From Opisthocomus hoazin (taxonomy: Eukaryota > Chordata > Aves > Opisthocomiformes > Opisthocomidae): a stretch of 64,000 nt of DNA. Positions within the stretch are counted from its first letter, which is position 1. Each line of letters begins with the position of its first letter. This document shows, piece after piece, positions 27,960 through 64,000 of the stretch. The stretch is taken from positions 81,272,504-81,336,503 of the forward strand of contig NC_134414.1 of assembly GCF_030867145.1 (NCBI RefSeq), written 5' to 3'. The position numbers and the translations under genes were made by a program. The notes beneath the pieces are model-generated. The model was given only the letters and a program-made list of their open reading frames with translations. It had not been told where the DNA came from and searched no databases.

Positions 27960-28224
27960 CGATATGACGAGAGGCAATGGCCTCAAGTTGCATCAGGGGA
28001 GGTTTAGATTACGTATTAGGAAAAATTTCTTTACTGAAAGAGTGGTCAGACATTAGAATAGGCAGCCCAAGGGGATGGTGGAGTCACCATCCCTGGAGGT
28101 GTTTACAAAACGTGTAGATGTGGCACTTTGGGATATGGTTTAGTAGGCAGGGTGTTGTTGGGTGGATGGCTGGACTTGATGATCTTAGAGCTCTTTTCCA
28201 ACCTATGGTTCTATGATTCTATGA
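27960..28224 (+). mobile_element. CR1 LINE 3'-end copy
   Basis: The sequence runs from a block reading AGGCAATGGCCTCAAGTTGC through the GTCACCATCCCTGGAGGTG and GTGGCACTTTGGGATATGG blocks to the tail ATGATTCTATGA. It is a 5'-truncated CR1 of about 265 bp in plus orientation. It belongs to the same subfamily as the CR1 part of the histone chimera in ASMT intron 3, which makes it a useful internal reference for placing the junction there. Confidence 0.93.
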
Positions 28225-45499: not shown

Positions 45500-48414
45500 T
45501 GAGCCAGGGGCTCCTCAGGTAATAGGGGCCGACAGGGAAACACTGGTGAAATACCGCAAAAGAATTAAGGGGTGTTCCTCTAAGAAGGTGGCACAGCTTA
45601 CAGGTACTGAAGTACCTCTGCACCAGTGCGTGCAGTATGGGCGACAAACAAGAGGAGCTGGAAGCCACTGTGCTGCTAGAAAGTTATGACTTAGTTGCCA
45701 TTACTGAAAACTGGTGGCACGAATCCCATGACTGGAGGATGGCTATCGATGGCTACAGGCTGTTCAAAAGGGACATGCAAGGAAGGAGAGGCAGAGGCGT
45801 TGCCCTCTACATCATGAAGTCAATACAGTGTGAAGAGCTGTTTTTGAAGAATAGCCATGAGCAGATAGAAAGCTTATGGGTGAGAAGCAGAGTGAGGCAA
45901 CAAAGGGAATTTTGTGGACGGTGTCTACTACAGGCTGCACGATCAAAGGTAGCTTACTGAAGCCTTTTTACTCCATGGACAGGAGACTGTGCTCACAGGC
46001 TCTTGTCCTGCTGGGGGACTTCAGCCACCCCAACACCTGCTGGAAAAGTAGCATGGCGAGCTGTAGGCAATACAGTAAACTCCTGGAGTGTAATGAGGAC
46101 AACTTCTTAAGCCAGGTAATAGACAGCCCTACCAGAGGGCATGTGATACTGGACTGCTGGTCACTAACACAAGTGAGCTCATCGGTGGCATCAAGATTGG
46201 AGGCAGGCCTGGGCTGCAGTGGTCACGCGTTGGTGGAGTTCTCAGTCCTGAGGGATAAGGGCCAGGCAAAGCGTAAAGTCAGGACCCTGAATTTTAGGAA
46301 AGCAGAATTCCAGCTGTTCAAGTAGTTAGTCAACAGGACCTGTGGGAAGCTGCCTTCAGGGACAAGGGACCAGATCAGAGCTGGCAGATCTTTAAGGATG
46401 CTTTCCATGGAGCACAAGAGCTCTTGATCCCCAGGTGTAAGAAATCAGGCAGGGAAGGCAAGAGACTGGCATGGCTGAGTCAAGACCTGCTGGTCAAACT
46501 AAAGGGCAAGAAGGAAATGCACAGACAGTGGAAGCAAGGGCAGGTATCCTGGGAAGGATGTAGGGCCGCTGCCCGGTTGTGTAGGGAGGGGGTCAGGAAG
46601 GCCAAGGCACATACGGATCTGAACTTGGCAAGGGATTCAAAGAATAGTAAGAAAGGCTCCTACAGGTATGTCAACCAGAAAAGGAAGGTCAGAGAGCATA
46701 CCCCTCATGATGATCAAGACAGGCAAACTGGTATGAGGAGAAGGCTGAGGTACTCAATGACTTTTTTGCCTCGGTCTTCACTGGCAACCTCTCTTTCCAC
46801 ACCTCTCAAGTGGATAGACCTCAAGATAAGGTCTAGGGAAGCAAAGTGCCTCCCATTGTAAGAGAAGATCAATTTTGTGACTACCTGAGGACCCTGAACA
46901 TATAAAAGTCTATGGGACCTGATGAGATGCATCCCAGAGTCCTGAGGGAATTGGCTGGTGTAGTTGCCAAGCGACTCTCCATGATACTTGAAAAGTCATC
47001 ACAGTCAGGTGAAGTTCCTCATGACTGGAAAAAGGGAAACATTTCACATCTTTTTAAAAAGGGTAGAAAGGAGGACACTGGGAACTACTAACTTGTCAGC
47101 CTCACCTCTGTGCCTGGTAAGATCATGGAACAGATCCTCGCAGAGCTATGCTAAGGCACATGGAGGACAGGGAGGTAATTCAAGACAGCCAACATGGCTT
47201 CACCAAGGGTGACTCCTGCCTGACCAACCTGTTGGTCTTGTATGAGTGGGCAAGGGAAGAGCTACGGATGTCATCTGTCTGTACTTCTGTAAGGCCTTTG
47301 ACACAGTCCCCCACAACATCCTTCTCTGTAAATTGGAGAGATATTAATTTGATGTGTGGATGAGGAATTGGTTGAATGGTTCCATCCAGAGAGTAGTAGT
47401 CAATGGCTCAGTGTCCAGATGGAGATCAGTGATGAGTGGTGTCCGTCAGGGGCCTGTACGGGGGCCAGTGCGGTTTAATATTTTCATCAATGACATAGAC
47501 AGTGGGATTGAGTGCAGCCTCAGCAAGTCTGCAGTCAACACCAAGCTGAGTGATGAAGTTGACACACCCGAGGGACAGGGTGCCATCCAGAGGGACCTGG
47601 ACAAGCTTGAGAAGTGGGCCCATGTGAACCTCATGAGGTTCAACAAGGCAAAGTGCAGGGTCCTGCACCTGTGTTGAGGCAATCCTTGGTGTCAATACAG
47701 GCTGGGGGATGAAGAGATTAAGAGCAGCTGGGCCGAGAAGGACTTGGGGCTGCTGGTGAATGAAAAGCTGGACATGAGCTGGCAACGTGTGCTCACAGCC
47801 CAGGCAGCCAATTGTATCCTGGGCTGCATCAAAAGAAGCGTGGCCAGCAGGGCGAGGGAGGGGATTCTGCCCCTCTACTCCACTCTGATGAGACCTCACC
47901 TGGAGCCCTGCGTCCAGCTCTAGAGCCCTCAGTGCAGGACAGACATGGAGCTGTTGGAGCGGGTCCAGAGGAGGCCACAAAGATGATCGGAGGCCTGGAA
48001 CACTTCTATGAGGAAAGGCTGAGAGAGTTGGGGCTGTTCAGCCTGGAGAAGAGAAGGCTCTGAGGACACGTTATAGCAGCCTTTCAGTACCTGAAGGAGG
48101 CCTGTAGGAAAGATGGGGAAGATATTTTCAGCAGGGCTTGTTGCAATAGGAGAAGGAATAATGGCTTTAAACTAATGGAGGGTAGATTTAGCCTAGATAT
48201 AGGGAAGAAATTTTTTACCGTAAGGGTAATGAAACACTGAAACACGTTGCCCAAAGAGGGGGGCCCCATCCCTGGAAACATCCAAGGCTGGGTTGGATGG
48301 CGCTCTGAGCAAGCTGGTCTAGTTGAAAATATCCCTTCTCACTGCATGGGGGTTGGGCTAGATGACCTCTAAAGGTCGCTTCCAACCCAAAGCTTCCAAC
48401 CCTATGATTCTATG
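45500..48414 (+). mobile_element. Decayed 2.9 kb CR1 LINE with endonuclease and RT remnants
   Basis: A long CR1 missing the 5' UTR and ORF1. The remains of ORF2 run from MGDKQEELEATVLLESYD (45,637; AP-endonuclease region, with ITENWW and SHDW motifs) through the reverse transcriptase ([44 protein letters not shown]) to the C-terminal [17 protein letters not shown], followed by the 3' UTR and the tail CTATGATTCTATGA. Several frameshifts and stops break it. The catalytic F-A-D-D of the polymerase reads S-A-V-N near 47,528-47,540, so the copy is inactive. It lies between AKAP17A and ASMT in the same orientation as both. Confidence 0.95.
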
Positions 48415-51400
48415 AAGGAGTTCCGATAATCCACCCTACTGTTCATGTTTAATTACTAAACTTACAGTGCTTAAATCACACTGCTGTCACAAGTTCTGGT
48501 ATAAATGTTAAGGAAACTGAAGAGTATAGGATTTAGCAACTAATACTTATCAAAGACATACCAAACTAATAAATGCTTCTGAAACATTGAATTTATGTTG
48601 GTATGGTTGAGTATTGGGTAGAGTCTGACTTGGCTACTAGGCTGCCTCTACTTTCAGACCCTTAGCTGCTAGAAATCCAGTGCACTGAGAATGTCTGCAA
48701 AGGTATATTCCTTTTTATTTCTGAAACTGGTCAGTGAGGATTATGTACCAGTAGTAACCTGACTCTGTTTGCCTAGACTTATGTCCCATTGCGTTGAAGT
48801 TGCATACCTTATTACATTTGTCTGTCAACATTCAGGGTTTGGTTTGGTTTTGAGGGCTTTGTTGCCCTGGATTGTAAGCAGGAAGAGAGATTTATTTACT
48901 CTTTTTATCAGAACATAGAGGATCTGAGTGAACAAGACTGTGAGTCTGTGTTTCTTCTGCATTAGACTATATGAAATGTTGGAGCCTGGATGTCAGCTTT
49001 GATGTTGACTGAACACATGGCAGCCCCAGGCATATAGGGGCTGTGGTGGAAAGAAATCCATGAAGATGATGGAAGAATTAGAAGTGTTGAGCTTATCCCA
49101 TGCATTTGACTTCATTTTTCATTCTGCTTTCAAACTCTGGAGCTCTTCCCATGCCATTGCAAAGCCAAGAACTCAAATAGTTCCCAGCTTCTTGCTCTGT
49201 GTCAGGCAGCCATACCCATCAGTTAATTTTAAACCTACTCAGCCTTTGTTGCTGGGGAAAGCTTAGGTTCACTTTTTATTGGTGTGGTTTCTTGCTTCAG
49301 CAGTGGAAAAATGTTCTTAGTGAGCAGGACTGGTGTTGTGTAAATATGGGGTGTAAATCCCATTAAGCCATGGATCGGGCAACTCCACAGTACATCACTG
49401 TGTTCATGCCTGCTGGAAAGCCTTGGCAGCAATGAGAGAGACCCCTGAGTTCTATTCCATTTACTGAGTCCAAAGAAGTGCCCAGGGTTTCTTCTGATGT
49501 TCTGTCTCTGTTCTTGAGTATTAAGTCACACGATGAGATGGGAAGAGACTTTCCTCCGTTGTGAGGATGCACATCTCTTCTTGCACTCAGCTCCAGGAGA
49601 GATGTCACATCTGTCACCACAAAACATAATGTCTGCCTTTTGTCCTCATAGAGGTGCCAGGAGGATAGGATGGAGCCAGTGGGAACCCACCTTGCTCTTC
49701 TGGTTGTGTAGGGTTGAGAAGGGTATTAGTGTTCCAATGATACAAGGCAGCGTGTGGCCTCTTCCTGTTTGAGGATGAGGACCCTGCTCGCCACAGACGG
49801 CTTGCAGCAAGGTCCGAGCTGAAGGGGGTGGGAAGGTTGTGGGCTGACGTTCCTGACGCTCCCTGTGCTGTGCGGGAGCTGAGGCATGCTGTCCCTGTGT
49901 GTGCTGCTGCCTCACCACGGCTGTGGCACTGGCAGCCAGGAGTGGTTTTCCTGCAGCTCCACTTAAGCCAAGAAGAACATGAGCCTCGAAAGGGTAAGAA
50001 ATCCAAGTTCCTGTTGCTGTTGACAGTGTTACTGCATAATCCTGGTTCTGATCCTTAAAGAAGAATGCCTCCTCCTGTTGCTGTCTGGGGACTGAGGAGC
50101 CTCTGCGCTTACAGTATTTTAACCTGCAATTTTCTTTTTATCTCTTGGACTCAGCCTGCACTAGGTGACTCAGGAAGCAGCTTATTCATCCGAAACAACA
50201 TCTTCTCTACAAGGGCAAAGCCAAGCCCTTCAATATGATTGCTGTGGTGCTTTCCATCTGCTTACTGCCTGCTGTGGTAAAGTAATTTTGATAATGTAAG
50301 AGTCATATTGCCAGAAGTAATTGATATTAGCAAGAAGTGGTTACCAAAGCTGTGACCATATCCATGTTTTCTTCTAATTGACTCTACCTTTATGGAGGAA
50401 TTTGTTCAATGACCTAGAATAAGAGCATATACATGATTAGGTATGCATATAAAAAACATTTGAAATGTTATTTGGAAGCATCATCTTGAAAGGTGTTAGA
50501 GAAAATGGGAATTTTTTCAGTGACTTCCAAAATTATGAGCACAGGACGGTACCAGGGACCACAAGGCTTTAAAGGCAAACCAATGAGAGCTAATCACTGA
50601 TCAGTGCTACCTGGACATCACACCAGTGTCAGCTTTAGGGCAGTTCTTGAACATGAATAGGATCATGTAACAGACTATTGCAACTGCTCATGTTTGATAG
50701 TAGAGGTGGAGGTGTTAGATTCTGTATAAGACAGCAATTTAACCAACGGGTTTGGCAGATGCCTTAATTCATAAAAGAGTGAGCAGAATTGACCACTGAT
50801 GTCTTGTATTGCTATAGAAGTTAAGGAGATAGTTTTATTGTAATTAAGAGGAAATATATTTATTGCCTGTGTTTTGATCTGGTATCCTGCCTTTGAGGTT
50901 TGGTTATAATCTGGATACAACACCCAGTTCATTACCCTTATGTTGCATTCTGTTCATCTGGTCCTTCCTCAGGCCAGGGAACGTGTTATTTGCAGAATGT
51001 ATCTTTTGCTGCCTCACAACAAATTTGCACAGTTCTCTCTAGTGTTTGTATAAAGCAGCAAGTTAGTTGCAGTTGATCCTTCAGAACTGACTGTGCTGAA
51101 CAGATCTATCTAGTGTCTGACATTCCTACACATGTAGATATTATTATTGTTAAAAGGAAGTGTACCTCTTACTTTTTTTGTATTTAATCTGACACCGGCC
51201 TCTTGAGGCTTATCTGAAATGGCATGCACCACCATCCTTTCTTCTTTAACCACAGCACAGAAGATTAATTTGATCTAGTTCCCCCTCACATGCTACATCT
51301 CCTGAATACATCTCCTGCTGCCTCACAAAAAAAATTCATAGGTTAGCTCAAACAAATGCTTTTACACTTGCACTGTGGCACCTGTGAAGTGTCCTTGAAA

Positions 51401-56300: not shown

Positions 56301-59300
56301 GTAAGAAATACAACTCAGTCTTGGACAGATGTCTAAGAGTATGTAGACAGAAATATTCAAGGATCTCACTTTGAGTCCTGAATGTAAGTCTTTGGAATGA
56401 AAAACATCTCATACAAAAGCATCCTGTCTGCTCATCTAGACAGGAAGGAAATTTGAAAAGTAAAAGGATTTGAAAATGGCCTGACCCCTCAGGATAGATT
56501 TAGCATTTGTTGAGACTTCTCTGACCTTTGGAGGCTTGGATGAGTAGACCTTGTCTCTGCATGAGACTTTATAAAAAACACAGGGATTTATAGCTGAGAG
56601 CTTGCTGTCCGAGTGCCTTAAATGTGGAAGGTTCCTTTGATGGTGGGATTTCTTCTCACTTTTCATTTCTGGAGTTTTAGAAATAGAAGGCTGCCTGGAA
56701 TTGCCTTTTGCCCTCCCTGTTAAGCCATACAAAGAACAAGATTTTTCAAATATCTTCTCAAAGAATTTCCTTCCCTCTCCCATGGTTTGTCTGTAAGTAT
56801 TATGCAGAAGCCTTACCTTAAAAACTTCTGTCATTGCCTTTTCAGGTGAAAGAAAGAGTCTGGTAAAATGACAGTTATTGCAAACAGCATTTGATTAAGG
56901 CACAAAGGTAGAACTAGTAGTTCCACTTTCCTTAATATTTACTGATGTTGTTTGGTTTTGTGTGTTTGTAAGCACATAGGCATAAAATTATAATATCCAA
57001 TGCAGTGGAGAATTTTTCCTCATTTACTATTTAGTTACCTTTCCTGTTGTCCCTTGCTGCACCTTTGGCCAACAACAAAGGAATGCTCTTTGGGTTGTGC
57101 AAATACTGCTGCATCCTAAGGCTTCTGAAAGGCTGAGCTGACAGTAAAGGGTGCCCAGTGCTTTCCAGTTAACACTGGTACTGTTTTTGTGAGAAACAAT
57201 CTCAACTTTGGTTAAACCATGTTCTTAATGAGGGTAAAAGGAGCTTCCCATGGACTTTATCAAATCATTGTAGAGTTGATGCCTTTGTTACTGTTTTAGA
57301 CATGTTTGTGTGGCCAGAGAAATAACTAATACTTGTAAATTTGACGGTGTCCAGCTAAAGAAGGATGTTTTTCTCATGTATGGTACATATGTCTGTCTGA
57401 AGGTTGAGGGTTGTTCCTGGAGATATTTCACACCTTCCTTCTCTGTGAAAAGACAAGGCAATTCTTCTGGCTTGAATGAAGCACTCCTTTTGGCTGTGGT
57501 GAACCTCCCTGCCTCAGGGAGACCACTGTAGTCATGCATGTCAGTGTCTGAAAACAGGGTCCATAGCGTGAGATATTCCCCTCTGCTGCAAGCCACAGGA
57601 GAGTCTCCAGGGTTCATTGGAGCGTACATTAGATGCTTTGTCAAAGAACAAAAACAACAGCAGAAAAACCCACCACCACCCAGTCTTGACTTTGTGCTCT
57701 CCAGGCAGAAATCAAGAGAGACTGTGAGAACGTTCTCTGAAGCTAAGGAAGAGGCAGGAACATTCACACCCGAAACCTGGTCTCTAAATGTGAATCTTTG
57801 TGAGCCAAAAACATTGGTTGGCTTCACCAGAAAAAAAAAGTGAAAAAAATCTATGCTAGAAGCACTGTATGGTATTATCGATGTCCACAGAAGCTTGAGT
57901 TTAATCATTGGTCTCATTTATATGAAATATGGATTTACCTGAAAAAAATATTATTATGTGTGTATTTTCTCCAACAAAGCAGCTTTAGAAATGCAATAGG
58001 CATTGGTGCTATCACCTGATCTCTTGCTCCCACCTTTCCTTACCCCCAGGTTGTGTTCACTGCCTGTGAGTTGGGGGTGTTTGATCTTCTGCTGGAATCG
58101 GGAGAGCCTCTGTCTTCAGATGCCATTGCTGCGCGCTTGGGTACCAGCACCACGGGCATGGAAAGACTGCTGGATGCTTGTGTGGGGTTGAAGCTCTTGG
58201 CAGTAAAGCTGACACAAGTAGGAGGTAATAAAGGGCAGAAGAAGGGGAAGAAAATAAAAGACTTAAACCTGTGAGGTTTTTGAAAGTGAGGTGAGGTGTG
58301 TGGGGGGAGGTGATACCTAGTGTCAGGCCAGTTACTGTAGCTGGAAGGAGGAGGGAATTGCTTGAGAACACCATCCGCTCTTCAACTGGATGAGAAGCAG
58401 CAAATGTCAACAAGATGTAAAGTGAAGGTGAAGGGCTCTATATCCCTAAACTTCTTTGTGAAAGAGCCTCAGGTGACCTTGGAGAAGATATTCAGAGTCT
58501 CTGCAGAGCTGGTCTCAAGAAAACTCTGAGGTTGGTCATGATTTTAAACCTTAAAACAAAATGCCAGGGTGGATGGGCAATAGCATGATTTAAAAACACG
58601 TTTTGGTTTTCTTTGGGGTTTTACCACTGCGTGAAGTATTTTGTTAGGATGCTGATCTGAGCTGAGAGGTAATGTAAGTTTGCCCTTGCTTCACAGATGT
58701 TGAGTCCATGTGGTCAGAAGGGTTCTGTGGTCAGGACTAGCCAGAGTCTTAAAAGTTGTGTCACCTGCTCTGGCTTGTGTTGCCTTGCCGTGTTTTAGGG
58801 CTTACAGTATTTGCCCAGTGAGTTCAGGGAGAACAGGCTCTATCTTTAATTTTCCTTTTGTATGCCAGTCCCATGGGCGAGTGATACCCCTGCAGATGCA
58901 TTGGAGGCAGTGGGGGAGATTTCTGTGAGTCCTTTGGGTGTTCATCTGTCTGCAGAAGGTCCTGCCCTAGTGAACAGAGAGAGGGTAGGTGTGGTTGGCA
59001 TGCTGTTTTGGGAACTTGTCTCCCAGTTGCTGACCTTGTTGACCGGAAACGTCTGCAAGGGCTTCTCATTTAAATAGAGCATACAAAAAGCTTCCTCTGG
59101 TGGTAGAAACCTATAGGTAAATTATGACACTTGTAATGCATTCCTCTTGCTGTTCTTGAAGGAAATTCTTGGTGCTGGAGTAAGGGCAGGCAGATAGTGT
59201 TTACTCACATTGAATGGGGCAATGCACATTTCAGCAACCCTCACCCACTGCTCATTGCAGTGGAAGGATTGATTGTAGAAGCAATGTGTTTCTCTCTTTG

Positions 59301-62300
59301 GTCATATAGACATCTTCTGGTGATAAGTACCATACTGTGTGATAGGCTAGGTGAGGTGGTATATTGTAGATATTAGTAAGTAAATATATTTCACCCTTTA
59401 GCCCTTTACAGAAACACAGAAATCTCCAACATCTACCTTACAAAATCAAGTCCAAAGTCTCAGTATCATATTATGATGTATTACTCCAATACAGTCTACT
59501 TGTGCTGGCACTATCTGGCTGATGCTGTGAGGTAAGGAGGAGTGTTGTGCGCTGTCTGTTGCAGATGGCTTTGTGGCATCTGTGTGGCTGCTCTTAGAGT
59601 GGTGTGTTGCTGGGGAAGGGCATAATGAAGATGGTGGCTGGTTCTCAGAAAGAAAATCCAAGAGATCATTTTGGCTATTAACACATAGCCAGTATTTGTT
59701 CTTGGTTTTTTCTTTTTTTACCGTTTGTGTGTATTCTTGTTTTCCATTCCTTCTGATGGTGGAGATGATCTAGGAATCGTAATCTGTGTGTTTGACCTTC
59801 AGGAAAGCACTTGATCATTACAGTGGCTGTTACCTGAGGAGGCATCAACAAAGTGAATGATGAGTAATGATGGCTAAGGATACTTCTGTTCCAAAGGTGT
59901 ATAGCAGTAGTTTAATATGGGGCTGGAGTCTCAGTTGTCCCAGTCAGATCAATTGATGATCACATATGGTTGTGATGATTGCACCAGTCTTGCACCTTTA
60001 CCTGAGATGTGTTCCCATAAATCATAGAATCATAGAATAGTTTGGGTTGGAAGAGACCTTATAGATCATATAGTTCCAGCCCCCCATGCCATGGGCAGGG
60101 ACACCTCATAGAATGAGAGAATCATAGAGTGGATAAGACTTTTAAGATCATCAAGTCCAACTGTCAGCCCAACACCACCATGCCTACTAAACCATGTCCT
60201 GAAGTGCCACATCTACATGTTTTTTTAACACCTCCAGGGACGGTGACTTAACCACTTCTAGTGGCTCTGAAAAGAGCCTTTGGGTTCTAAATACATTAAC
60301 CTATCCCAGAAATTGAAGTTTAGCCACCAGAACTGTACAGGGTGTGTCTCTGGTGCTTGAGGGCATAGACCACGTCCATGGCCGTGACTGTCTTCCCCTT
60401 GGCATGCTCAGAGTATGTGATGGTGTCATGGAACACATTCTCCAGGAAGACCTGCAACATCCCATGCATCTCCTCGTAGATGAGCTCCAAGGTGTGCTTC
60501 ACGCTGCCGAGCCACGCGGCGGGTGGCTGGCTTGGTGATGCCCTGGATGTTGTCACACAGCAGCTTGTGGTGGCGCTTGGTGCCCCCCTTGCCGAGCCCC
60601 TTCCCACCCTTGCATCTGCCAGACATGGTCTCATCCCACTTGACACAAGCAACCTTCCACTAGACCACGTTGCTCAAAGCCCCATCCAACCTGGCCTTGA
60701 AAAGAACCAGTCATTCTTCTGAAAGGTTGCAAAATATATCGGCATATTTTGGGGTGGCAAAAGAGGGTGACTTTACAGCCATTATAAACAGGGTGGCATA
60801 ATATTCTGTAAAAAGTTGAGCACCTTCCACAGTGATGACCTAGCTGAAACTACAGCGCTGAGGTGTGTTTGGGTGAAAGAAATCCACACTCATATGCTTT
60901 TGTTGGTTGCTATTTTAGAGAAGGAAGAAACCAGTATGAAAGAGTTTTTGGTGTTTCATCTAAAGACCCTTTTGGAGCAATGTACAGGTAATCATTAGTG
61001 TATTTATAGAAATTTTATTCTTATTGTAGAGCAAATTAATGTTTTTAATTATGGCTCAGGATATTTAAACATGATGATGTGAGAATCACCATCATCAGAA
61101 CCATCATGCAGCATTTTTCTTTCTCAACATATCCATTACTGGGACAGTGTCTGATATTTTGAATAGAAATGCATCATTTCCCATTCTGAATAACATATCA
61201 CAGGTCTCTGGCACAGAGGCAATGGTAGTTGAAGGAAAAAAAAATCCCTTGGAAGCCTGAGAATTAGCAGCATAATACACTCTTGGAGTTCGCTAGTCTT
61301 AATTCCCTATTTAAATGCATGAATGCGTATCTGTACCCTTCTGCTATGGTTAAGACTTGAGGTAGGTTTATATGCAAAGAGAATGTATTCAGTGTCAATA
61401 AAACCAGAGATTAGTGTTTGAGTTAAAACTTGTAATAACAGTTATATGATCAGAATCACCAAGGATATTGTAAGTTACCCTTTCTATGTGCTGTGTCTGT
61501 TTGCATTATTAGATCAGAAGAAGAAATGTTGAAATTCATGGCTGGACAGAACTCAGTATGGAGTATATGTGGCAGAGATGTTCTTGCTGCATTTGACCTT
61601 TCCCCTTTCACGCACATTTTTGACCTGGGAGGTGAGAGTCAGTAGATTGATAAGCCTCTGAACTGTTGTCTTTTACAAGCTCTGAAAAGAAAAGTAATTC
61701 CGATGTTGTATGATGGACAGAGTAATGGAAAGCAGGACATATCTCAGCAATAAAAAGAGCTTTTTACTGTCTTGGTTGGATTAAAAAGAGAAATGTGAGA
61801 GTGGTGAGAGCATTAGGAAGCTGAATGCTTTTCACTAGAGTCTCACTTGCGTGAGTAGTGGCTTATCCCCTTGTGTATGTGTCAGGTTTGGCATAGTCTT
61901 GTCCCTTGCTTGATACATTCTTCCAGTGCCAGTCTCTTTCCCTCCTCTACTTCAGTTGGTGTCATTGAGATATTGTCTGCAGCCTTTTACCTTGCAGCAC
62001 TCCACTGTCCCAGTGCTGCCAGGATTCATGGAATGTGTCATGATCCATCACTGCTTCCCCAGCACCTGTTTAAGTGGCTCTGTTTTTCGTTTCCCACCTT
62101 CCAGCATCCACAGCTCGGTCTGGCTGAGGGGGTGCGTAGGAGCTGTGAGAGCTGGGGCTGACCCCATAAACCTGTGTGCTGGGGGCCCTGAAGCTTCCTT
62201 CCTGAAGAGCAAATGGAGACGGTGGCCTCTCCTGACCCTCCTCTTACCTTTTAGTAACACCTGGGAAGCAAATGTACCTTGCCAGCTGCCATGAGGCTGA

Positions 62301-63939
62301 ACGCCCTGTTGCCTGCATCGCTTCATGGGGATGTTGCTGAACAGGTTTGCTTTGTGTCAGAGCTGACCTTCTTTTGCTCTCCCCAAAGGAGGTGGAGGAG
62401 CTTTGGCCAGGGAGTGTGCTGCTTTGTACCCAAATTCCACCGTCACAATTTATGACCTGCCGAAAGTTGTGCAAATGGCCAAAGAACATTTTATCCCCCC
62501 TGAGGAGCGTCAGATCGCTTTCCACGAAGGTAGGTGCAGACAGAGTGTAATGTCATCCCAGCTGTTGCTCCTGAGCTCCTTGTCTACACTTAGAGGTCCC
62601 ATACTGGAGGCTTAGGTCTCCAGATGCCCCTTACGTGGGCAGAGCTGCAGACTGCATCTTCCCCAGCCGAGGTCTGCAATCCATTGCTACCGCAGGGCTG
62701 TTCCAGTTGTGCACCTGCAGCTGCCTTCTCTCAGAGACAGGACTCAGTTATTCAGCAACCCAGAAGCTCTTTACTCCTGAACAAAACTATTTGATTTCTT
62801 CAGAACAAGGGTACTTTAACAAAAAAAAAAAAAAAAGTCCTGAAATTTTGAAAAACTTCCATGCTGTGTTATGAATCTTCCTAGCACTCCCTTTTCTCCT
62901 GTGCAGACCTCCTGGCAGATGTGCGGGATGCCAGGCCTGCTCTCAGCCAGGGGGTTTTCCTTCTCTGGTCATGATTGATTGACTTTCAAATCCTAAGATA
63001 TTTCAGGCTTGGAATGTGGGCGAGATAGCCCGTATTCCTGTTGCCCAGTCGTCATGGTCTTTGCACCATGTATGATGAAAATTAATGTAAGGGCATCTAC
63101 TTTTCAATGTTTTCAGAAATCTTCAAAGTGTTGGAATGACTTAATATTTCTTGAAGCTCTGAGAGAGGAGAGAAGCCTTTGAGGGAGGAAGGGAGTGTAT
63201 AAAAACAAAGCTGGAGAAACACAGGAAATGTTATGTGTGCCAGTGATGCAAATAAATGGGAGCAGAAACAACAAAGTAAGATGCGGAGGGAAAACTATGA
63301 ATTCAGTACACCAGGTGCTGAACAAAAGGCATGATGATGAAGCTAGTGGTAGGAGGTGAGAGAGCTGTATTTTTTCCTTATGGATTTATGATGTAGCTCT
63401 GTGGTTACTGAAGGTTTTTGAAAATTTGCTTAGATAAGAGATTTTTTTTCCCTTTTATTCCATGGCAGTCTATCACAGAAAACATGAGAAACTGTCTTTT
63501 CTTTTTAATGCTTTTTGAATCTGAATTCCCATCATTGAAGAAAACTGAGACTCAAATGTTTTCCATTGCATCAATGGCTGTTCTAGATGAGCTACTGCTT
63601 TTAAACATTTCAGACCTTCTGGAGACTGAACAAGAACAAAATCCCCTGTGCAGTGCCACAGAGGACTTTTAGCTGGTAACTATGTTGTTGTTTGATGGGG
63701 GTAATGGGCATGGTCAGCCCAGAGTCTTTAGAACTGAACAGAACTGAAAATATTTGCTTAACTTGGCCCTCTGTGTTTTAGGGGTTTTGTGTGATACATG
63801 TATTCTTGCTTTACAGGAGACTTCTTTAACGATTCAATTCCAGAAGCTGAACTCTATATTTTATCCAAGATACTGCACGACTGGGATGATGACAAATGCA
63901 GGCAACTGCTGGTGAAAGTCCACAAGGCTTGCAGACCTG
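56229..63939 (+). CDS. ASMT: ASMT: acetylserotonin O-methyltransferase (3'-truncated by window)
   Basis: This enzyme transfers a methyl group from S-adenosylmethionine to N-acetylserotonin, giving melatonin, mainly in pineal and retina. Seven exons join in frame: 56,229-56,300, 58,050-58,224, 59,402-59,531, 60,919-60,987, 61,513-61,631, 62,389-62,529 and 63,817-63,939. They give 276 codons plus one base. The chicken protein has about 346 residues, so about 70 C-terminal residues, including the third catalytic-site residue (Glu), are off the right edge. Seen: the dimerisation/winged-helix N-terminus ([17 protein letters not shown]), the SAM motif DLGGGGGALA (residues 186-195) and the catalytic His-Asp of LHDWDDDKC (His256, Asp257). 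All introns are GT-AG and the gene appears intact. Confidence 0.97.
58050..58224 (+). CDS. ASMT: ASMT coding exon 2
   Basis: The acceptor is CTTACCCCCAG|G and the donor GGAG|GTAATA, chosen over CACAA|GTAGGA because it restores the conserved spacing before the (A)xYRNTE of the next exon. It encodes [18 protein letters not shown] through [13 protein letters not shown], the helix-turn-helix-like dimerisation domain of plant- and animal-type O-methyltransferases. Confidence 0.95.
59402..59531 (+). CDS. ASMT: ASMT coding exon 3
   Basis: The acceptor is ACCCTTTAG|C and the donor GTGAG|GTAAGG. It encodes [18 protein letters not shown], then [20 protein letters not shown], which is very close to chicken. 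Chicken has AFYRNTE where this copy has ALYRNTE. The exon is too short for simple frame searches and was found by homology and splice sites. Confidence 0.95.
60019..60106 (-). mobile_element. Left part of the older (host) CR1 in ASMT intron 3
   Basis: The CR1 3' tail (AATCATAGAATCATAGAAT) and adjoining 3' UTR are read on the minus strand up to GGGCAGGGACACCT. The continuation expected of this CR1, starting ACCTTCCACTAGACCACG, is found at 60,652-60,702. The element is therefore split by the 545-bp insertion 60,107-60,651. ACCT is present on both sides and could be a short target duplication. Confidence 0.88.
60107..60260 (-). mobile_element. CR1 3'-end portion of the CR1-histone H4 chimera
   Basis: On the minus strand the CR1 block GAAGTGGTTAAGTCACCGTC is followed by CCTGGAGGTG, the GTGGCACTTCAGGACATGG block and a tail ATGATTCTCTCATTCTATG. 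It is collinear with the independent copy at 27,960-28,224 and belongs to the same subfamily. Upstream CR1 sequence is absent: instead the histone H4 3' end joins it at about 60,260. It lies 3' of the H4 sequence and in the same orientation. Confidence 0.88.
60261..60651 (-). pseudogene. Histone H4 retropseudogene, near full-length mRNA copy
   Basis: Read on the minus strand: about 25 nt of leader, ATG at 60,626-60,624, [20 protein letters not shown] and [16 protein letters not shown], then a net 5-nt deletion at about codons 40-44 where H4 has RRGGVK. After the shift come [42 protein letters not shown] and TLYSSGG, with the stop at 60,322-60,320 in its normal place. Coding length is 307 nt against 312 in intact H4. 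A 3' UTR of about 40 nt and the histone stem-loop follow. Many substitutions (G4C, R19H, R23C in mature numbering) show it is not functional. It sits in ASMT intron 3, antisense to ASMT. Confidence 0.94.
60263..60278 (-). terminator. Histone mRNA 3' stem-loop, perfectly preserved
   Basis: The minus strand reads GGCTCTTTTCAGAGCC: a 6-bp stem with a TTTC loop, preceded by ACCCAAA and followed by AC. This is the canonical element that is bound by SLBP and defines the 3' end of replication-dependent histone mRNAs. It lies 41 nt after the H4 stop. CR1 sequence begins within about 3 nt of the stem, where the mature histone mRNA would end, and no purine-rich downstream element follows. Confidence 0.95.
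60652..60702 (-). mobile_element. Right part of the older (host) CR1 in ASMT intron 3
   Basis: ACCTTCCACTAGACCACG is followed by the TTGCTCAAAGCCCCATCCAA block and CCTGGCCTTGAA. This is the CR1 3' UTR sequence expected to follow directly after the fragment ending at 60,106. It shows that the chimera entered a pre-existing CR1. Confidence 0.85.
60919..60987 (+). CDS. ASMT: ASMT coding exon 4
   Basis: 69 nt with acceptor GCTATTTTAG|A and donor TACAG|GTAATC, phase 2 in and 2 out. It encodes (R)[18 protein letters not shown] then GAMY, the conserved EGRNQY block. The exon begins about 216 bp after the end of the host CR1. Confidence 0.94.
61513..61631 (+). CDS. ASMT: ASMT coding exon 5
   Basis: 119 nt with acceptor TTGCATTATTAG|A and donor GGGAG|GTGAGA. 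It encodes [20 protein letters not shown] then [19 protein letters not shown], the start of the Rossmann-like methyltransferase domain. It ends inside the glycine-rich SAM-binding loop. Confidence 0.95.
62389..62529 (+). CDS. ASMT: ASMT coding exon 6
   Basis: 141 nt with acceptor GCTCTCCCCAAAG|G and donor GAAG|GTAGGT. It encodes the rest of the SAM loop ([19 protein letters not shown]) and [18 protein letters not shown], where the acidic residue after beta-2 (D in YDLP) binds the SAM ribose, then EERQIAFHE. Confidence 0.95.
63817..63939 (+). CDS. ASMT: ASMT coding exon 7
   Basis: 123 nt with acceptor GCTTTACAG|G and donor CCTG|GTAGGT. It encodes [19 protein letters not shown] then [20 protein letters not shown], containing the catalytic-site His-Asp pair. 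A second donor-like GTATGA at 63,944 would shift the frame and lose the conserved GGG that follows in other species, so I prefer the first. The last coding exon is outside the window. Confidence 0.94.
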
Positions 63940-64000
63940 GTAGGTATGAGCTCTTGAAGGACAGGGAGGCTCTCGCCTAGCAGTTATATGAAGCACACCA

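Follow-up and report, generated by a model that had tools for sequence, protein, structure and literature searches.

On the minus strand of the window (the whole stretch of DNA analysed, 64,000 nucleotides, C1:81272504-81336503 in a genome of 1.48 Gb), a unit of about 545 bases joins a decayed histone H4 copy, ending where the mature mRNA ends, to the 3' end of a CR1 element. The unit was probably produced by one retrotransposition event, in which target-primed synthesis on CR1 RNA was carried on, end to end, along a mature H4 mRNA.

Layout of the nested unit and its host site

The unit reads, in order on the minus strand, H4 leader, coding region, stop, 3' UTR, stem-loop and CR1 3' end, and it interrupts an older CR1, one part of which lies on each side. 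The features are given below with the evidence by which each was placed.

60652..60710, minus strand: 5' portion of the older CR1 that the unit interrupts; it aligns with other CR1 copies and resumes at 60102 when AGGT is counted once; the upstream limit of about 60710 is approximate
60652..60655, minus strand: left AGGT target site duplication, from direct reading and flank alignment; its GT possibly also belongs to the H4 leader
60627..60651, minus strand: H4 5' leader, an ungapped match to the leader of H4 gene L003
60320..60626, minus strand: H4 coding region, from ATG at 60626 to TAA at 60322-60320, decayed and frameshifted; protein matches in two frames and alignment with eight H4 genes
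60261..60319, minus strand: H4 3' UTR to the mature mRNA end, with the stem-loop at 60278-60263 followed by AC; Rfam Histone3 and gene alignment
60259..60260, minus strand: TA at the joint, compared with the eight H4 genes, H3 genes and the CR1 consensus
60107..60258, minus strand: 5'-truncated CR1 3' end with ATTCTATG-type tail, from matches to other CR1 copies and to a 19-copy consensus; the limit at 60107 is approximate
60103..60106, minus strand: right AGGT target site duplication; A60106 is possibly also the last base of the inner CR1 tail
60019..60106, minus strand: 3' portion of the older CR1, its own tail included; it aligns with other CR1 copies

The protein, DNA, stem-loop and CR1 matches all agreed with the first-pass annotation, which had described a minus-strand H4 copy joined to a CR1 3' end. 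Its further claim that the unit interrupts an older CR1 also held, since the older element was seen on both sides and read on continuously with one AGGT. The host gene lies on the opposite strand, and the unit is thus antisense to it. An open stretch at 58020-58271 matched the Dimerisation domain of Pfam, and two others (62367-62612 and 63795-63977) matched Methyltransf_2; the stretch at 62367-62612 also matched residues 188-238 of hydroxyindole O-methyltransferase (E 1.1e-12), which we take to be ASMT. These stretches would form exons of a single gene, and the unit would lie in the intron that separates the first two; the matches bore out the ASMT intron context proposed earlier. Together with the CR1 content and the genome size, ASMT points to a bird. 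Elsewhere in the window, pieces resembling a CR1 reverse transcriptase were observed in translation at 46906-48415, with a CR1 3' end at 48283-48415, and a plus-strand CR1 3' end at 28076-28223 shared 83% identity with the inner CR1 in the chimera.

The H4 half, the CR1 half and their joint

Protein comparison matched H4 residues 1-41 in a first frame (E 3.9e-16) and residues 44-102 in another (E 3.5e-21), the two frames being separated by a 5-base deletion that causes a frameshift. The DNA match to H4 spanned positions 19-391 of the 545-base query, at up to 83% identity. In Pfam, the first H4 piece matched no family, and the second matched CENP-T_C above the cut-off (4.9e-07) and Histone below it (0.0025). 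The stem-loop scored 28.3 bits against the Rfam Histone3 model (E 7e-6, with 701 bases searched), short of the gathering score of 34, and a search of the whole window at that gathering score listed no histone stem-loop; about half of the 46 positions of the model lie past the stem-loop, and in the H4 copy that stretch is CR1.

Comparison with the eight intact H4 genes of the genome revealed 48-49 differences in the coding region from each of them, which does not single out a parent. The 3' UTR was identical to that of L002 and L003 at 44 of 59 positions with no gap, and to those of the other six genes at 33-38 of 53-56 positions with gaps. The leader was identical to that of L003 at 18 of 26 positions, ungapped, over 60652-60627 (6, 11 and 6 for the three other genes shown), a resemblance common to L002 and L003; the match is modest, and outside the anchor it was 11/19, a level reached by 67 of 20000 random 19-mers. 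Leader similarity ended at G60653, the start of the older CR1. In L003, a TATA-like ATATA begins 35 bases before this point, and the H4 copy therefore appears to begin at or near the likely mRNA start; on this reading of the sequence, it likely runs from or near the mRNA 5' end. Both the sequence that precedes the gene leaders and the flank that follows the gene stem-loops were absent from the copy. As in a processed pseudogene, the H4 half thus ends as a mature mRNA does, lacks gene flank and promoter and has a decayed reading frame. A functional H4 gene was ruled out by the frameshift, by changes at all codon positions (17/102, 12/102 and 20/103 at positions 1, 2 and 3, with no sign of constraint) and by CpG decay.

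Positions 394-545 of the query matched 32 CR1 sequences at 86-91% identity, the best 40 of 2539 candidates having been scored. This part differed at 11/153 sites (K2P 0.076) from a consensus of 19 of those 32 sequences, taken from the top of the list, which themselves lie 3.3-8.4% from the consensus. The CR1 part reaches its tail, where an octamer of the ATTCTATG type is present, and such a 3' end fits target-primed synthesis, which requires it. CR1 reportedly needs a 3' hairpin, as attributed to Suh in 2015; among 200 shuffles, 191 folded as well as or better than the 3' end of this copy, and 135 did so for the consensus tail. Taken together, the protein, DNA, stem-loop and CR1 matches ruled out chance similarity.

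At the joint, the copy reads GAGCC-AC-T-A and then CR1 GAAGTGG. The eight H4 genes read GAGCC-ACC and continue into flank; CR1 copies read GCCCAGG-GAAGTGG, and the consensus of 19 has GG at T60260/A60259. The 31 stem-loops found by pattern in 140 kb of the histone cluster all run on into gene flank, and they are followed by ACC in 27 cases, by ACT in 3 (two H3 with ACTA and one H2B; no H4) and by CCC in 1. The TA may represent H4 (a changed C, an added U or a parent with ACTA), changed CR1 bases or untemplated bases. The junction, which the first-pass annotation had proposed to fix to the base, was reached by the H4 and CR1 alignments on its two sides, save for T60260 and A60259, which may belong to either or to neither. 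Whichever assignment of these two bases holds, the H4 sequence extends 2-4 bases beyond the stem. In the cytoplasm, histone mRNA has its end 3 nt beyond the stem once 3'hExo has trimmed two nucleotides, and TUT7 adds U if more are lost (PMC10388802). A precursor or gene copy would run into flank, and the stop at the mature end therefore points to a processed mRNA that was copied from its end; this stop is the strongest evidence for the copying of processed mRNA. T60260 might also be a fossil of cytoplasmic uridylation, in which an exported, trimmed H4 mRNA was given a non-templated U and was copied in an end-to-end jump by CR1, a LINE with stringent template requirements. If so, the H4 mRNA and the CR1 particle would have been together in the cytoplasm. 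We regard this reading as doubtful, because 3 of the 31 cluster stem-loops have ACT in the gene itself and the parent could have had the T.

Insertion, source genes and possible origins

One AGGT pair encloses both the H4 and the CR1 parts; at 4 bases, it is short, could be due to chance and is weak alone. Five other CR1 copies were compared at the insertion site: two aligned ungapped, one had a one-base gap just past the site and two more distant ones were without six bases just before it, and none of them suggests that bases were lost there. At non-CpG sites, the H4 coding region differed from L003 at 17/229 positions (K2P 0.078). With CpG sites included, 49/307 positions differed, far above the CR1 half, an excess explained by CpG decay, since 32/78 CpG bases had changed against 17/229 others. 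The like decay of the two halves (7.8% for non-CpG H4 and 7.6% for CR1) argues for one event, although the match depends on omitting CpG, gene L003 has itself changed and both yardsticks are rough. At a substitution rate of about 2e-9 changes per site and year, a divergence of 7.7% corresponds to near 40 million years. As is characteristic of template-switch chimeras, the copy of the donor RNA lies 5' of a truncated LINE 3' end on the same strand. Like decay and the common target site uphold the earlier view of the two parts as a single unit.

The eight intact H4 genes all lie in one histone cluster (C8:19.19-19.29 Mb). Three inverted pairs were observed there (L002/L003, L005/L006 and L007/L008), whose members score alike as matches to the query, as though conversion or a recent palindromic duplication had kept them similar. 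The CR1 half gave no match at E 1e-5 in 140 kb of the cluster. An H4 gene flanked by the same CR1, which had been named as evidence of a DNA source, was not found in this genome, where none of the eight intact genes adjoins it. When the H4 half plus three bases was used as query, the nine candidates, all scored, were the chimera's copy and the eight genes. A SINE family was rejected, as this query was found once outside the eight H4 genes; the unit is a single copy and shows no sign of function. With the H4 protein as query and all 24 candidates scored, 14 matches were obtained, namely the eight genes, two pieces of the chimera copy and four old, decayed copies at 44-63% outside the cluster:

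L057, C1:69.10 Mb
L058, C12:20.66 Mb
L059, C4:89.12 Mb
L060, C1:98.07 Mb

At the 3' joint of these four copies, blastn with a threshold of E 0.01 detected no CR1; near L060, CR1 pieces lie about 220 bases before the copy and 455 after it, the latter on the other strand. These four old copies, which lack any recognisable CR1 tail, show that another route has also given rise to H4 copies; CR1 fusion was seen in one of the five dispersed H4 copies found. The H4 copy recognised in the first pass was confirmed, with the correction that four older ones exist elsewhere in the genome.

The stem-loop pattern, with at most one mismatch, occurred 51 times: the histone cluster accounts for 40 (31 of them in the 140 kb analysed), the chimera for one and other parts of the genome for 10; the reversed pattern, used as control, occurred twice. 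The 10 places elsewhere were compared with whole H4 and with the first 60 residues of H2A, H3, H2B and H1, which revealed one H2A and one H2B gene and eight places that match no histone query. Blastn at E 0.01 detected no CR1 behind the stem-loop in these eight; L050 has a 23-base CR1 match about 450 bases before its stem-loop. No histone-CR1 joint but this one was found by the H4 protein query and the stem-loop scan, which covers intact or near-intact loops and misses decayed loops and 5'-truncated copies of other histones. Among the eight places without a histone match is L048 (C217:144220-144237), where the stem-loop is perfect and the preceding 500 bases match none of the histone queries. 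The scan also brought up a second small histone locus (L046 and L047, C33:4.149-4.151 Mb) with one H2A and one H2B gene and their stem-loops.

In the origin that we consider probable, the CR1 endonuclease would have nicked the older CR1 in the ASMT intron, and the first strand would have been begun by the CR1 reverse transcriptase at the 3' end of CR1 RNA. The enzyme would have left the CR1 template after about 152 nt and resumed synthesis at the 3' end of a mature H4 mRNA, continuing to or nearly to its 5' end, and the cDNA would have been joined to the target over a 2-base GT overlap, giving the 4-base duplication. The switch would thus have taken place during reverse transcription, by CR1's own enzyme. 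Template jumping in vitro is known for the R2 enzyme of Bombyx, which needs untemplated bases to be added first and works best with a +1 and at most a +2 nt overhang (PMC8857657).

An identical DNA product would be yielded if an H4 mRNA and a CR1 RNA fragment had been ligated before reverse transcription and then copied in one go, the main rival, which we judge improbable. RtcB joins cyclic-phosphate ends, whereas processed histone mRNA ends in a 3'-OH. This stands against ligation, RtcB being the ligase named for such chimeras (PMC13174262), as does the position of the joint, which coincides with the natural 3' end of the mRNA and includes two unassigned bases, the pattern that an end-to-end jump predicts. 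On the other side, L1 chimeras in human cell assays were attributed to pre-ligated RNA in the paper cited for R2, according to whose authors jumping is perhaps unneeded by such elements (PMC8857657), and both ligation and switching were considered possible for human U6-L1 chimeras (PMC13174262).

Two independent insertions, with an H4 copy later landing exactly at the CR1 5' end or a CR1 landing directly behind the 3' end of an H4 copy already in place, would be in keeping with a site that already holds a nested CR1 insertion, but the single AGGT pair round both parts, the lack of a tail of H4's own, the like decay and the joint at the mature mRNA end make them highly improbable. If an H4 gene followed by a CR1 had been duplicated as DNA or transcribed by read-through, H4 would likewise stand before CR1, and that source gene could have been lost; with no CR1 adjoining any of the eight intact genes, and with both the gene flank downstream of the stem-loop and the gene sequence upstream of the leader missing from the copy, we consider this origin extremely improbable. 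The template switch proposed in the first-pass annotation is therefore supported as the best fit, RNA ligation giving the same DNA and being only less likely.

Significance and comparison with known chimeras

The reason usually offered for a deficit of retrocopies is that CR1 requires its own 3' end. In chicken, retrocopies are few (78), and the deficit has been ascribed to CR1 (PMC3136929). The present locus suggests that a cellular mRNA without a CR1 end can still be copied when synthesis begins on CR1 and the enzyme then moves to another template. H4 is a useful donor in this respect, as the position of its mature 3' end is known with nearly single-base precision and the joint thus reveals the form of RNA that was copied. 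The locus also illustrates the type of fusion from which CR1-tailed SINEs could start, although here it went nowhere, and more such joints would make a jump testable against ligation for CR1.

No histone-CR1 chimera appeared in titles and abstract starts of the open-access literature among the matches listed, nor, among the matches listed from that literature, did any CR1 chimera whose joint to a non-polyadenylated mRNA is resolved to the base. The first impression of an undescribed locus stood within that scope, whereas the class of event is known (U6-L1, U6-L2 and tRNA-CR1); further related literature includes PMC3747384 and PMC8665684. Template-switch chimeras of LINEs with U6 have been reported for L1, L2 and RTE, duplications of 1-9 bp were present in 72.5% of 40 platypus U6-L2 chimeras, and a 5'-truncated U6 beside a CR1-like element in turkey was left unsettled by a gap (PMC4476161). 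Like the H4-CR1 unit, the U6-L2 and U6-L1 chimeras carry a cellular RNA 5' of a truncated LINE 3' end within one target site, and U6-L2, made by a stringent LINE, shares with it the same orientation and a short duplication (PMC4476161). They differ in that the H4-CR1 donor is the mRNA of a protein-coding gene and the element is CR1. Template switching by stringent LINEs had been inferred previously, and H4-CR1 is hence less surprising.

Other known systems resemble the unit in one part each. In a catalogue of 2026, 17 mRNAs were found in mammalian LINE-1 chimeras, six with joints precisely at splice donors, for which trans-splicing was proposed (PMC13174262); these also join an mRNA to a LINE but involve L1, and in the text of that paper the three occurrences of "Histone" all refer to chromatin marks. 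In human, 51 tailless, 5'-truncated histone retropseudogenes were attributed to L1 (PMC5322556); like the H4 half, they derive from non-polyadenylated histone mRNA, and they differ in that no LINE fusion is reported in the available part of that paper. PittSINE of passerines consists of a tRNA-Asp with a CR1-derived tail, for which a template switch by the CR1 enzyme was proposed (PMC5729268). It resembles H4-CR1 in being an avian chimera that carries a CR1 3' tail and a target duplication, but it involved a switch from SINE RNA to tRNA and became a multi-copy SINE, while the H4-CR1 unit is present as one copy (PMC5729268).
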